Position numbers and translations under genes: made by a program. Of a stretch of DNA of 64,000 bases, positions 34,175 through 37,814 are shown piece by piece. The stretch is from Pyxidicoccus parkwaysis (GTDB taxonomy: Bacteria; Myxococcota; Myxococcia; Myxococcales; Myxococcaceae). Below the pieces are notes generated by a model that was not told the DNA's origin, searched no databases, and saw only the letters and a program-made list of their open reading frames with translations. Numbering within the stretch: the stretch's first letter is position 1; each line of letters begins with the position of its first letter. The stretch is from assembly GCF_017301735.1 (NCBI RefSeq), contig NZ_CP071090.1:5198001-5262000 (forward strand), given 5' to 3'.

Positions 34175-35119
34175 ATGATCCAGGTCTGTCTGCTGAAGGA
34201 CGGTCACGTGGTGTGCGGGGGGGAAGAGCTGCTCTCGCACGAGGGGCGGAAGTGGATTGACGTGCAGCAGCCCACCGAGGAGGTCATGGCCCGGCTGGCC
34301 GAGCAGTTCGGCCTCCACAAGCTGGCCGTGGAGGACTGCCTCCACCTGGACCAGCGGCCCAAGCTGGAGGAGTACCCCAACCACCTGTTCATCGTCCTCC
34401 AGGGGTTCACCGTCGCGAGCAAGGACGTGTGTGACGTGACGCTGCACGAGCACCACTTCTTCCTCGCCCAGGACTGGCTCATCAGCGTGCACGAGCTGCA
34501 CTTCCCCGGCTTCGACACGGTGCTCAAGCGCGTGAAGGACGACCCCAAGGCGACGATGGGCCGGGGCATGGACTTCATCCTCTACATGCTGGCGGACGGG
34601 CTGGTGGACGCGCAGTTCCCCATCCTGGACTCCTTCAGCGATGAGCTGGAGGACCTGGAGGTCGAAATCTTCGAGAGGGTGGACAAGTCACACCTGCAAC
34701 GCATCTTCGAAATGAAGCGGATGCTGGTGACGGTCCGCCGGGTGCTGTCGCCGCAGCGCGACGTGGTGGGCCTGCTGTCCCGACGGGGCATCCCCCACAT
34801 CCACGAGAAGACGACACTCTACTTCCGCGACGTGTACGACCACCTCGTGCGGCTGTACGAGCAGATCGACGCGGGCCGCGACATCGTGGGCAACGTGATG
34901 GACGGCTACCTGTCGATGGTCGCCAACAAGACGAACGACATCACCAAGCAGCTCACCATCTTCGCCACCCTGTTCCTGCCTCTGTCCTTCATCGTCGGGT
35001 TCTTCGGGCAGAACTTCGAGCAGCTCAACTCTCGCGGCTACTACTACGCCATGTGGGCGACGCTCATCGGGTTCCCGGTGGCGCTCGTCCTGTGGTTCAA
35101 GCACAACCAGTGGCTCTGA
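34175..35119 (+). CDS. corA: CorA-family divalent metal transporter with GQN in place of GMN
   Basis: Inner-membrane pentameric channel for Mg2+ or related divalent ions. The 314-residue product has the acidic N-terminal domain, the long stalk helix (ITKQLTIFATLFLPLSFIVGFFG), two C-terminal membrane segments, and a positive tail (FKHNQWL). The selectivity loop, normally YGMN, reads FFGQN (Gly278-Gln279-Asn280). Ion preference may therefore differ, as it does in ZntB with GIN. AGGAG lies upstream of the ATG. The gene is followed after 19 bases by a hydrolase. Confidence 0.88.
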   Translation: MIQVCLLKDGHVVCGGEELLSHEGRKWIDVQQPTEEVMARLAEQFGLHKLAVEDCLHLDQRPKLEEYPNHLFIVLQGFTVASKDVCDVTLHEHHFFLAQDWLISVHELHFPGFDTVLKRVKDDPKATMGRGMDFILYMLADGLVDAQFPILDSFSDELEDLEVEIFERVDKSHLQRIFEMKRMLVTVRRVLSPQRDVVGLLSRRGIPHIHEKTTLYFRDVYDHLVRLYEQIDAGRDIVGNVMDGYLSMVANKTNDITKQLTIFATLFLPLSFIVGFFGQNFEQLNSRGYYYAMWATLIGFPVALVLWFKHNQWL

Positions 35120-35138
35120 CGTCTCACGGAGGAGAAAC

Positions 35139-35921
35139 ATGCTGACCGTGACGGTGGATGGAATTCCCCTGCACTACCGGGACGTGGGCCAGGGCCCGCC
35201 GGTGCTGCTGCTGCACGCCTTCCCGCTCAATGGCGATTCCTTCGACAAGCAGGTGAAGGCCCTGTCGGGGCGCTACCGCTTCATCATCCCGGACCACCGC
35301 GGCTTCGGGCAGAGCAAGCTTGGCGACGGACCCACGGAGATGTCTCGCATCGCGCGAGATGTGATTTCGCTCCTGGATTCACTGAAGCTCGACTCGGTGG
35401 TGGTGGGTGGCGTGTCCATGGGTGGCTATGCGGCCATGGCGCTCTTGAGAGAGGACGCGGGCCGGGTGGCCGGACTCGTGCTGGTGGACACGCAGGCCTC
35501 CGCGGATGACGAGGCGGGCAAGGCGCGGCGCGAGGCATCCGCGCAGGAAGCGCTGGCGAAGGGCGCGGAGCCGGTCATCCAGTCGCTGCTGCCGAAGCTG
35601 GTGGCCGCGGGGCCAGACTCACCGGTGGGACGCGAGGTGGCGGCGCTGATTCGCACGGCATCACCCGAGGGAATCGCCGCCGCGCAGCGGGGCATGGCGC
35701 TGCGGCCGGACAGCAAGGACATGCTGGCACGGTATGCGGGCCCGGCGCTGGTGGTGGTGGGCGAGCACGACACCATCACCCCGCTCGAAAAGGCGAAGGC
35801 GATGGCGGACCTCGTTTCCGGCGCGAAGCTGGAGGTCATCCCCGGCGCGGCGCACCTGCCCAACCAGGAGCAGCCGGAGAAGTTCAACGCAGTGCTGGAC
35901 GCGTTCCTGTCGTCGCTCTGA
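35139..35921 (+). CDS. Alpha/beta hydrolase (3-oxoadipate enol-lactonase-like)
   Basis: The 260-residue product has the standard order of an alpha/beta hydrolase: VLLLHAFPLNGDSF (oxyanion HAF), IIPDHRGFGQS, GGVSMGGYAAM (nucleophile Ser93), LVVVGEHDTITP (acid Asp) and PGAAHLPNQEQPEKF (catalytic His). The whole triad is present. It resembles PcaD-like esterases or lactonases, but the substrate is unknown. A GGAGGAG ribosome-binding site precedes the ATG. Confidence 0.85.
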   Translation: MLTVTVDGIPLHYRDVGQGPPVLLLHAFPLNGDSFDKQVKALSGRYRFIIPDHRGFGQSKLGDGPTEMSRIARDVISLLDSLKLDSVVVGGVSMGGYAAMALLREDAGRVAGLVLVDTQASADDEAGKARREASAQEALAKGAEPVIQSLLPKLVAAGPDSPVGREVAALIRTASPEGIAAAQRGMALRPDSKDMLARYAGPALVVVGEHDTITPLEKAKAMADLVSGAKLEVIPGAAHLPNQEQPEKFNAVLDAFLSSL

Positions 35922-36000
35922 GGGCCCGCGCTGGCGGCGCGTCCCGTCCGCATGCGAACATCCCGCGCGGAGTGAGCATCTCTCGCGCGGGAGCGTGACA

Positions 36001-36624
36001 GTGGAGCGCATGTTTCTGAAGGACGTGGAGTCACACGAGTCGGACACGCATTACGGCCGGCTCATCCGGAAGATGCGTGAGGCGGGCTCGCCCGTTCCGC
36101 AAATCTGGCACCTGTTTGCCTTCAAGCCGCGGATGACGGAGGCGCTCTCCGTCTTCACCCAGGAGGTGATGCGCGGCCCCTCTCCCCTGTCGCCGGGACT
36201 CCGTGAGCTCATCGCCGCGTATACGTCGCGCGGCAATGAATGTTTGTTTTGAACGGGCTCTCACGCCGCGGTCGCGGCGGAACTGCTGGGCAGCACGGAT
36301 GTGGTGAAGGCGGTGCTGGAGGACGTGGGCTCGGCGCCCATCTCCGACGCTGAGAAGGCGCTGTTTGTCTTTGTCGACAAGCTCAACCTGGAGTCGGCGC
36401 AGGTGCGCCAGGAGGACATCGACCGATTGAAAGCGGTGGGCTGGACGGACGAGGCCATCTACGACGCCATCTCCGTGTGCGCCCTGTTCAACTTCTACAA
36501 CCGCTGGATTGATGGCACCGGCGTCCAGGCGATGCCCGCGGAGATGTATCACCGCAACGGGCACCGGCTGGCGCAGGGCGGCTACGTCGACTCGCCGCTT
36601 CAGCCGGCGAAGGAGAAGAAGTAG
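36001..36624 (+). CDS. Candidate selenoprotein: AhpD-like peroxidase-related enzyme with in-frame TGA
   Basis: One continuous frame of 208 codons is interrupted only by TGA at 36250-36252. The first part (MFLKDVESHESDTHYGRLI, LRELIAAYTSRGNECLF) and the second (TGSHAAVAAELLG, NFYNRWIDGTG) are adjacent halves of an AhpD/carboxymuconolactone-decarboxylase-type protein whose motif is NxCxxCxxxH. The TGA sits exactly where the second, redox-active Cys belongs, giving CLF-U-TGSH. Eleven bases after the TGA a hairpin (36264-36269 with 36274-36279, loop GGTC) fits a bacterial SECIS element. The codons before the TGA (AAT GAA TGT TTG TTT) are unusually A/T-rich for this genome. Start is GTG 36001 (GGGAG upstream) or ATG 36010. 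A nonsense mutation or sequence error is the alternative. Confidence 0.8.
36250..36279 (+). promoter_or_regulatory. In-frame TGA with SECIS-like hairpin
   Basis: TGA (36250-36252) is followed by 11 bases and then the perfect stem CGCCGC/GCGGCG (36264-36269, 36274-36279) with the tetraloop GGTC. Bacterial SECIS elements lie just downstream of the UGA inside the coding region and carry a conserved G early in a small apical loop, about 16-37 bases from the UGA. Here the loop Gs are 18-19 bases away. Confidence 0.7.
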
Positions 36625-36638
36625 CCCGCGCGGAGATG

Positions 36639-37814
36639 TCAGCGTCCGCGCCGTGCCCGGCGGGTGGCCTCCTCGAGGACGTGCTCCTTGAGGAGGTAGC
36701 CGAAGCCGGCGTTCCGTAACCGGACGACGAGGTCATCCCGCGTGGTGGTGAGGCGCTCCGCGGCGCTCTCCAGCTTCCAGTCGGCGTGGGCCAGTTGCTG
36801 GAGGAGGTACGCGCGCCGCGTCTGCGCCGACGAGAGACGGAACGTCTTGAGGTACTCCAGCGTGCCGTCGTCGCGGACGATGGCCTCGCCCAGGTGGTTC
36901 TCCTCCGAGGGCTTGAGGCTCGTGTGGAAGCGCTGGAGGAGGAACGGCCCGGCGTCGTAGATGCGCTCGGACGTCACCGCCGCCCCGAAGAGGCCGCCCG
37001 CCATGAAGGCATGGAAGTCCGCCCAGTCGCCGCGCATGCGCATTACCGCCGCACGCAGGTCCTCCAGGTTGGAGATGCGCGCGTCGTCCAGGTTGAGGCC
37101 GAGCTCCGGCACCGCGCCGAGGAAACCGTACTGGAGCAGCAGTTCGCCGTAGAAGTCCTCCAGCAGCGTGCGGTGCAGCGCTCTGTAGTCGTCCGGGTGC
37201 GAGACGACGAAGGCGGACAACAGCACGTCCGCATTGAAGAGGAGCAGGCCCACCTGCCGCTCGTGGAGCTCGAAGGTGCGCAGCGCGCCGTCCAGCGCGG
37301 AGTTGGCCCAGCCGTTCACCGCAATCTCCATGCGCGGATTCAGACCGTGGGACAGCGCCTCGCGCGAGTACTCCGTCCACGCAATCTCCGGCCCGCCGAA
37401 GTGCATGGCCAGGAAGCCCTCCATGGCCAGGTGCAGCGGAAGCATGCGGAGCTGGTTGCGGTCCTCGCGGTGCACCATGCGGTGCAGGAGGCGCACGGAG
37501 AAGGGCCCCACCTTCACGCGCTTCCCGTCGGGCGCCTGGAGTTGCGTGCCGTGGACGGCTTCCGCCTGACGGTTGCCCCACGTCATCACCAGGCCGTGCG
37601 GAATGTACGTGCAGTACTTGAGGCCGGGCGCCTTCAGCTCGCCCTCCAGCGACACGACGGCGAGGTGGTCGTCGTACGTGCGCCGGGCGAAGCGCAAGTC
37701 ATTGCGCACGGTGTCCCGCAGCACGGGCACCAGCCGGATGCCGCCCCACACCTGCGAGGGCGCCAGCCGCAGCCCCGCGGGCTCCAGCTTCTGCAACAGT
37801 CGCGCGTCCGTCAT
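36639..37814 (-). CDS. ARPP-2-like protein partnered with a vWA protein
   Basis: The 391-residue product begins MTDARLLQKLEPAGLRLAPSQ and has VWGGIRLVPVLRD close to the N-terminus, which I recall from the ARPP-2 family (ARG and rhodanese-phosphatase-superfamily-associated protein). The rest is a mixed alpha/beta region (YIPHGLVMTWGN, LHLAMEGFLAMHFGG) followed by a helical C-terminus. No signal peptide is present. The ATG overlaps the stop codon of the upstream vWA gene (ATGA), so the two act together. Function is unknown. The family name is from memory and should be checked by profile search. Confidence 0.55.
   Translation of the reverse strand: MTDARLLQKLEPAGLRLAPSQVWGGIRLVPVLRDTVRNDLRFARRTYDDHLAVVSLEGELKAPGLKYCTYIPHGLVMTWGNRQAEAVHGTQLQAPDGKRVKVGPFSVRLLHRMVHREDRNQLRMLPLHLAMEGFLAMHFGGPEIAWTEYSREALSHGLNPRMEIAVNGWANSALDGALRTFELHERQVGLLLFNADVLLSAFVVSHPDDYRALHRTLLEDFYGELLLQYGFLGAVPELGLNLDDARISNLEDLRAAVMRMRGDWADFHAFMAGGLFGAAVTSERIYDAGPFLLQRFHTSLKPSEENHLGEAIVRDDGTLEYLKTFRLSSAQTRRAYLLQQLAHADWKLESAAERLTTTRDDLVVRLRNAGFGYLLKEHVLEEATRRARRGR

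Follow-up and report, generated by a model that had tools for sequence, protein, structure and literature searches.

A gene in Pyxidicoccus parkwaysis almost certainly encodes a full-length AhpD-like selenoprotein. The UGA codon at position 36250 would be read as selenocysteine (Sec) by means of SelB, tRNA-Sec and a hairpin at 36264-36279, giving a protein with a Sec84 centre whose likely activity is the reduction of hydroperoxides. Positions refer to the window, i.e. the whole stretch of 64,000 nucleotides that was analysed. An earlier note made from these letters proposed a selenoprotein with a CxxU motif rather than a pseudogene, and this is now supported by a conserved TGA, a covarying hairpin and a full set of genes for Sec incorporation. 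The analysis supports the signal for recoding, the Sec machinery, the conservation across relatives and the fold. The coordinates of the features are summarized in Table 1.

Table 1. Coordinates of the predicted selenoprotein gene, its recoding elements and an upstream neighbor.
Feature	Position	Strand	Basis
AhpD-like (TIGR01926 type) selenoprotein gene, predicted	36001..36624	+	GTG start 36001, TAG stop 36622-36624; 207 aa with Sec84
Predicted Sec codon TGA, motif C-x-x-U-x-x-x-H	36250..36252	+	Read-through translation and ortholog alignment
Cys81 codon TGT, putative resolving Cys	36241..36243	+	
Conserved, rare Phe codon TTT immediately preceding the Sec codon	36247..36249	+	Codon counts
Predicted SECIS hairpin, 6-bp stem, loop GGTC 36270-36273	36264..36279	+	Comparative pairing and published bacterial SECIS rules
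GAA codon directly after the hairpin, conserved	36280..36282	+	Codon counts
Alpha/beta hydrolase gene, upstream	35139..35921	+	Similar gene upstream in 22 of 103 loci

The gene comprises two reading frames in the same phase that are parted solely by the TGA, as had been noticed earlier, and it behaves as a single gene with one internal stop. The only in-frame stop codons are this TGA and the terminal TAG. GC3 in the frame of the gene is high on both sides, with 0.82 upstream of the TGA and 0.90 downstream, compared with 0.61 and 0.67 in one of the other frames and 0.45 and 0.39 in the third. The GTG start is preceded by GGGAG (35989-35993). An alternative start is the ATG at 36010, and two orthologs (L015 and L016) have ATG in the place of the GTG. 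Read-through translation gives the core NECLF-U-TGSH, which puts the TGA at the second Cys of an AhpD-type CxxCxxxH motif, just where it had been proposed to lie. A gene finder that takes TGA solely as a stop would annotate a truncated or split protein.

The TGA is strongly conserved. Close orthologs with 59-100% identity were found in 20 of 100 related genomes (its own included). All 20 have TGA at the motif, and no other internal stop occurs in any of them. Neither a relative with TGC or TGT in this position nor random stops elsewhere in the gene, either of which the earlier note took as grounds for abandoning the idea, was found among these 20. Four more distant homologs (L030, L031, L032 and L039) have TGA at the same place. 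Searching 195 genomes of the phylum gave one TGA in each of the top 48 rows, the lowest of which scores 155.5 bits; the position of that TGA was checked just in those loci retrieved by other searches. Among named genomes, the best 80 of 510 confirmed relatives comprise 78 with TGA, one with Cys (L134) and one with T-x-x-C (L094). These 80 include Myxococcota, Acidobacteriota and Planctomycetota, with strains of Myxococcus, Corallococcus, Archangium and Hyalangium together with many acidobacterial and some planctomycete bins. The matches in G060 and G066 from the 100-genome search, and in G159, G190 and G143 from the 195-genome search, each with one TGA, were left out of the inspected set; that in G066 is a weak TGA-containing match in the former search and has no stop in the latter, and SelA was not found in this genome.

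Some individual loci call for comment. The acidobacterial L094 (3588-4184) has T-x-x-C in place of C-x-x-U. Four loci (L081, L109, L113 and L128) come from bins that carry the labels Cyanobacteria, Gemmatimonadetes, Chthoniobacterales and Proteobacteria, and their copies branch among acidobacterial rows in the tree. These bins may be mislabelled or mis-binned, or the gene may have been transferred. Within the genus (G000-G026), SelA is found in all 27 genomes, and a close ortholog was not found in 13 of them. The gene is therefore dispensable in the genus, and Sec is presumably retained for other proteins in those 13.

We examined the hairpin that follows the TGA. An uninterrupted stem is formed by CGCCGC (36264-36269) and GCGGCG (36274-36279), starting 11 bases past the TGA, with 17 bases between the TGA and the loop. 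The perfect 6-bp stem with its GGTC loop had been described before at this spacing, and the coordinates agree. Rules published for bacterial SECIS elements include an apical loop of 3-9 nt, a stem of 4-16 bp, a G in the first two loop positions, a UGA-to-loop distance of 16-37 nt and a minimum free energy of -7.5 kcal/mol or lower (PMC13188914). The window hairpin satisfies these, with values of 4 nt, 6 bp, GG, 17 nt and -13.2 kcal/mol (36250-36282). Yet the stability of the fold is unremarkable relative to shuffled sequence (z = -0.48 for 51 nt and -0.98 for 33 nt), and the equivalent stretch of the Cys-containing relative L134 folds equally well into another shape. Folding energy as sole evidence is not discriminating in this GC-rich DNA and was set aside; the case for a SECIS element rests on comparison between species. 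A search of Rfam over 35900-36700 gave four matches up to E = 10, all under their gathering scores and none relevant.

The stem overlies the codons for His-Ala-Ala-Val-Ala-Ala, and third codon positions pair mutually (36264 with 36279, 36267 with 36276, and 36270 with 36273). Covariation was analysed in an alignment (A3) of the 93 TGA loci, out of 101, that were left once exact copies had been removed; 89 of the aligned sequences are distinct. Paired cells amount to 98.6% compared with a mean of 93.6% on shuffling, both partners have changed in 39 cells compared with a mean of 11.0, and covariation scores 0.210 compared with 0.114; none of 500 shuffles reached any of these values. Less sharp measures were the four pairs with double changes and the eight further pair types, each reached by 4 of 500 shuffles. 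Sliding the partner strand by +3 gives the same four and eight, but with just 57.8% paired and 9 double-change cells, and no shift of the partner pairs more than 80.1% of cells or yields more than 9 double-change cells. At loop positions 1 and 4, G-C (57) alternates with A-U (29), matching the N1/N2 loop pair expected in the published SECIS model (PMC13188914).

Across all 30 myxobacterial loci compared, a set that omits the distant L030-L032, none of the six hairpin codons changes at its third position, and most other conserved codons vary, with invariant exceptions that include Glu +10 and Lys +35. On the best tree the two loop positions require 12 and 14 changes. Branch support is weak, and the supported branches leave four independent pairs with a mean concordance of 3.9 (sign test p = 0.125), too few to give a significant result on their own, in a test that omits loop states beyond G/A and C/T and from which L168-L175 and L187 were also filtered out. 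Five or six of the six stem pairs are formed in 105 of 105 TGA loci, compared with 4 of 13 Cys loci; here L168-L175 and L187 are counted, the 13 Cys loci represent 12 genes (L134 = L168), and some TGA loci are near or exact copies. Judged from these alignments, hairpin covariation at silent third codon positions provides clean evidence for a putative SECIS element.

The codons flanking the TGA and the hairpin are also biased. The codons TGT TTG TTT that precede the TGA had been described as rare-looking. In eight neighboring genes of the window TTT accounts for 2 of 115 Phe codons and TTG for 13 of 336 Leu codons, which bears out the description for these two; for TGT, at 3 of 18 Cys codons, the sample is too small to decide. 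Of 101 loci, 98 have Phe before the TGA, and its codon is TTT in 88, compared with 154 of the 747 Phe codons at other places in these genes. Where the codon after the hairpin encodes Glu it is GAA in 75 of 78 cases, compared with 367 of 1057 GAA/GAG codons elsewhere in the same genes. These counts come from related rows, so that p-values are far too small, and the trend is strong. In the eight Cys homologs scoring at least 195 bits, the preceding Phe codon is TTT in two and TTC in six. It is conceivable, though we hold this tentatively, that in this subfamily TTT and GAA are also parts of a Sec insertion signal larger than the textbook hairpin. They might for example set the P-site tRNA, or leave the flanks of the hairpin unpaired. 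Extension of the stem by pairing of TTT with GAA was not adopted as the reason for their conservation, because TTC would pair better.

The earlier note also held that a genome lacking selA, selB, selC and selD would speak against the proposal. All four are present in the host genome, which is a single contig of 13.2 Mb. A profile search located SelA with 472.6 bits (G000:C1:5161831-5162907). SelB scores 289.9 bits, or 313.6 bits including a C-terminal piece, against a cut-off of 242.25, and SelD scores 380.2 bits. A tRNA-Sec was found with 69.8 bits (gathering score 47), and its anticodon is tca according to ARAGORN. In control genomes, SelA, SelB and SelD each exceeded the cut-off in 2 of 14, and the tRNA-Sec model in 5 of 14. 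The latter is therefore the least specific of the four markers. The gene for SelD (G000:C1:7740389-7741318, L052) carries an in-frame TGA of its own at the catalytic place, in HCAGUAAK with TGA read as U.

Sec and Cys forms can be compared within one acidobacterial family, that of G195, which was reached via L134 and from which 120 genomes were sampled and 17 of 30 loci inspected. An alignment of homologs at this position had been suggested as a check, and it reveals exchange of Cys and TGA among the acidobacterial relatives. Full-length homologs scoring at least 195 bits were found in 11 of the 120 genomes, three with TGA and eight with Cys. SelA is present in all three TGA genomes (418-457 bits) and absent in seven of the eight Cys genomes. 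The exception is G255, with 379 bits. G254 has a match of 23.7 bits that we take to be a paralog, and none of the remaining six belongs to the 84 genomes where SelA was matched. A Fisher exact test of SelA against the TGA or Cys form gives p = 0.024, ignoring relatedness and completeness; this overstates the case, because the genomes are related and few, and their completeness is not stated. The one TGA of L188 and of L189 serves as the terminal stop, and L183 has Cys in the motif with one TGA in the match. A single supported clade unites nine Cys rows, which represent eight genes, inside a larger set with 43 TGA rows, in a quick tree with SH-aLRT support only and without an inferred root. This clade would fit a replacement of Sec by Cys at that point. 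The presence of both forms within one family offers a natural experiment for studying the exchange of Sec and Cys in relation to SelA.

Co-occurrence with SelA was informative just in this acidobacterial sample. Among the myxobacterial relatives it is uninformative, since SelA is found in 87 of 100 genomes, many of which lack the gene. In the named genomes SelA was checked for 25 of the 80 loci, comprising 23 that bear TGA plus L094 and L134. It was not found in two of the 23 (L113 and L128); both are metagenome bins, and it is perhaps missing through incompleteness. SelA is present in the L094 genome and absent from that of L134.

The protein scores 114.1 bits with TIGR01926 ('peroxidase-related enzyme'), over the curated cut-off of 81.8, and 33.7 bits with the Pfam CMD family PF02627 (cut-off 23). 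With the AhpD core domain TIGR00778 it falls just under the cut-off (26.3 against 27.8). Two related families of AhpD-type proteins named (seleno)protein by NCBI, NF041238 (AhpD_rel_CFYUT; 46.1 against 175) and NF053654 (YciW-related; 30.3 against 310), do not include it. No variation is seen across 19 aligned rows at E69, S76, N79, C81, position 84 or H88, so that an E...NxCxx(C/U)xxxH core is present; C81 is not invariant in an alignment of 35 rows that includes L094. An AlphaFold model based on an alignment of 35 locus sequences has a mean pLDDT of 94.3. The best solved matches in Foldseek are 3c1l, 6k40, 2prr, 2pfx and 2oyo, with identities of about 26-28%, and the same five are the best relatives by sequence using phmmer (in the order 6k40, 2pfx, 3c1l, 2oyo, 2prr). 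All have the AhpD fold, to which the modeled protein is accordingly predicted to belong. AhpD of M. tuberculosis is far weaker in Foldseek, with a best E of 0.099. When aligned by sequence, 6k40, 2pfx and 3c1l have NxCxxCxxxH, i.e. Cys at the second position where the window protein would have Sec.

In AhpD-type chemistry the second Cys attacks the peroxide and the first resolves, and this serves as a template for the roles of Sec84 and Cys81. The product would be a thiol/selenol oxidoreductase with the carboxymuconolactone-decarboxylase fold. Decoding of the UGA as Sec by SelB and tRNA-Sec would be directed by the hairpin, and in a Cys81-x-x-Sec84-x-x-x-His88 centre the attack would come from Sec84. 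The enzyme would most likely reduce organic hydroperoxides, or a related electrophile, forming a selenenyl-sulfide with Cys81 that could then be re-reduced by a cellular dithiol. We infer the physical presence of Sec in the protein, its chemistry, its substrate and its reductant.

An in-frame stop usually raises the suspicion of a pseudogene or a sequencing error, and as a single position is affected here, a recent nonsense mutation or a miscalled TGC or TGT might be considered. However, the same TGA occurs in every one of the 20 close orthologs and 78 of the best 80 loci of named genomes, the alignment of relatives continues through a downstream half with a GC3 of 0.90 in frame, and the hairpin covaries at silent positions. 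The chance of such an origin is negligible, and conservation of the TGA between phyla has already refuted it. It might alternatively be supposed that the TGA is read through without Sec, by near-cognate suppression with Trp or Cys, or that it is a programmed stop generating a regulatory product of 83 aa. UGA is the leakiest stop codon. Yet the position is that of a catalytic-type Cys in homologs, the stem is formed in every TGA locus compared with a minority of Cys loci, the genome has the full Sec machinery, and the Cys forms are mostly in genomes without SelA. This makes either possibility very improbable.

There is more room for doubt about the reaction. The protein could contain Sec and act other than as a peroxidase, e.g. 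as a disulfide reductase, an isomerase, or a reductive dehalogenase like Bmp8. This debrominase (6ohi) is among the solved relatives (E = 0.00027 in phmmer and 5.8e-4 in Foldseek), TIGR01926 is named just 'peroxidase-related', and a peroxide substrate is assigned by analogy. On the other hand, the closer matches 3c1l, 6k40 and 2prr are titled alkylhydroperoxidase, alkyl hydroperoxide reductase or antioxidant-defence proteins, although such titles are often annotations and not assays. We consider a non-peroxidase activity unlikely, if well short of improbable, and prefer a selenoprotein that reduces hydroperoxides.

The neighborhood was explored as a clue to function, and no clear function follows from it. 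Genes for a CorA-type transporter and the alpha/beta hydrolase (34175-35921) lie upstream in the same 22 of 103 loci (L010-L023, L025, L055-L060 and L095), part of the 103 having been examined with flanks of 1.5 kb only. All 22 are from Myxococcus, Corallococcus or their near kin. In 17 of the 80 named loci there is a nearby reading frame of one cluster, the representative of which, in L075, is an MFS transporter. Other clusters occur in fewer loci, among them a kinase and response regulator in L091.

The SECIS element of E. coli fdhF is a SelB-type hairpin just downstream of the UGA, with a GGUC apical loop and a bulged U in the stem. Taking that element as generally described, the window hairpin has the same loop, but its 6-bp stem is uninterrupted.

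The protein belongs to a family of AhpD-like selenoproteins that is already known. CxxU members were described from Sargasso Sea data (PMC1088965), the GOS data set includes the 'AhpD-like 1' selenoprotein family (PMC2398784), and members occur in a few genomes such as that of Alkaliphilus metalliredigenes (PMC1794560). AhpD-like CxxU selenoproteins also appear under COG2128 (PMC9312934), and TIGR01926 is listed as a CxxU selenoprotein family with MCB9421940.1 as the example (PMC13188914). Selenoprotein genes are known in Acidobacteriota, with three given for Occallatibacter riparius (PMC12013277). Searching the titles and opening parts of abstracts of open-licence papers, we found no description of the gene for Myxococcus, myxobacteria, Myxococcales or soil Acidobacteria. 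The window gene shares with the known family, as set out in the passages cited, the TIGR01926 assignment, the CxxU motif and a SECIS with G in a small apical loop. It differs in its source. The members named in those passages are from marine metagenomes and a few genomes, together with MCB9421940.1, to which the likeness is at the level of the family, whereas the window gene is myxobacterial. Cultivable soil bacteria of Myxococcus, Corallococcus, Archangium and Hyalangium thus give access to a Sec enzyme that can be tested, from a family that these sources describe mainly from marine metagenomes.
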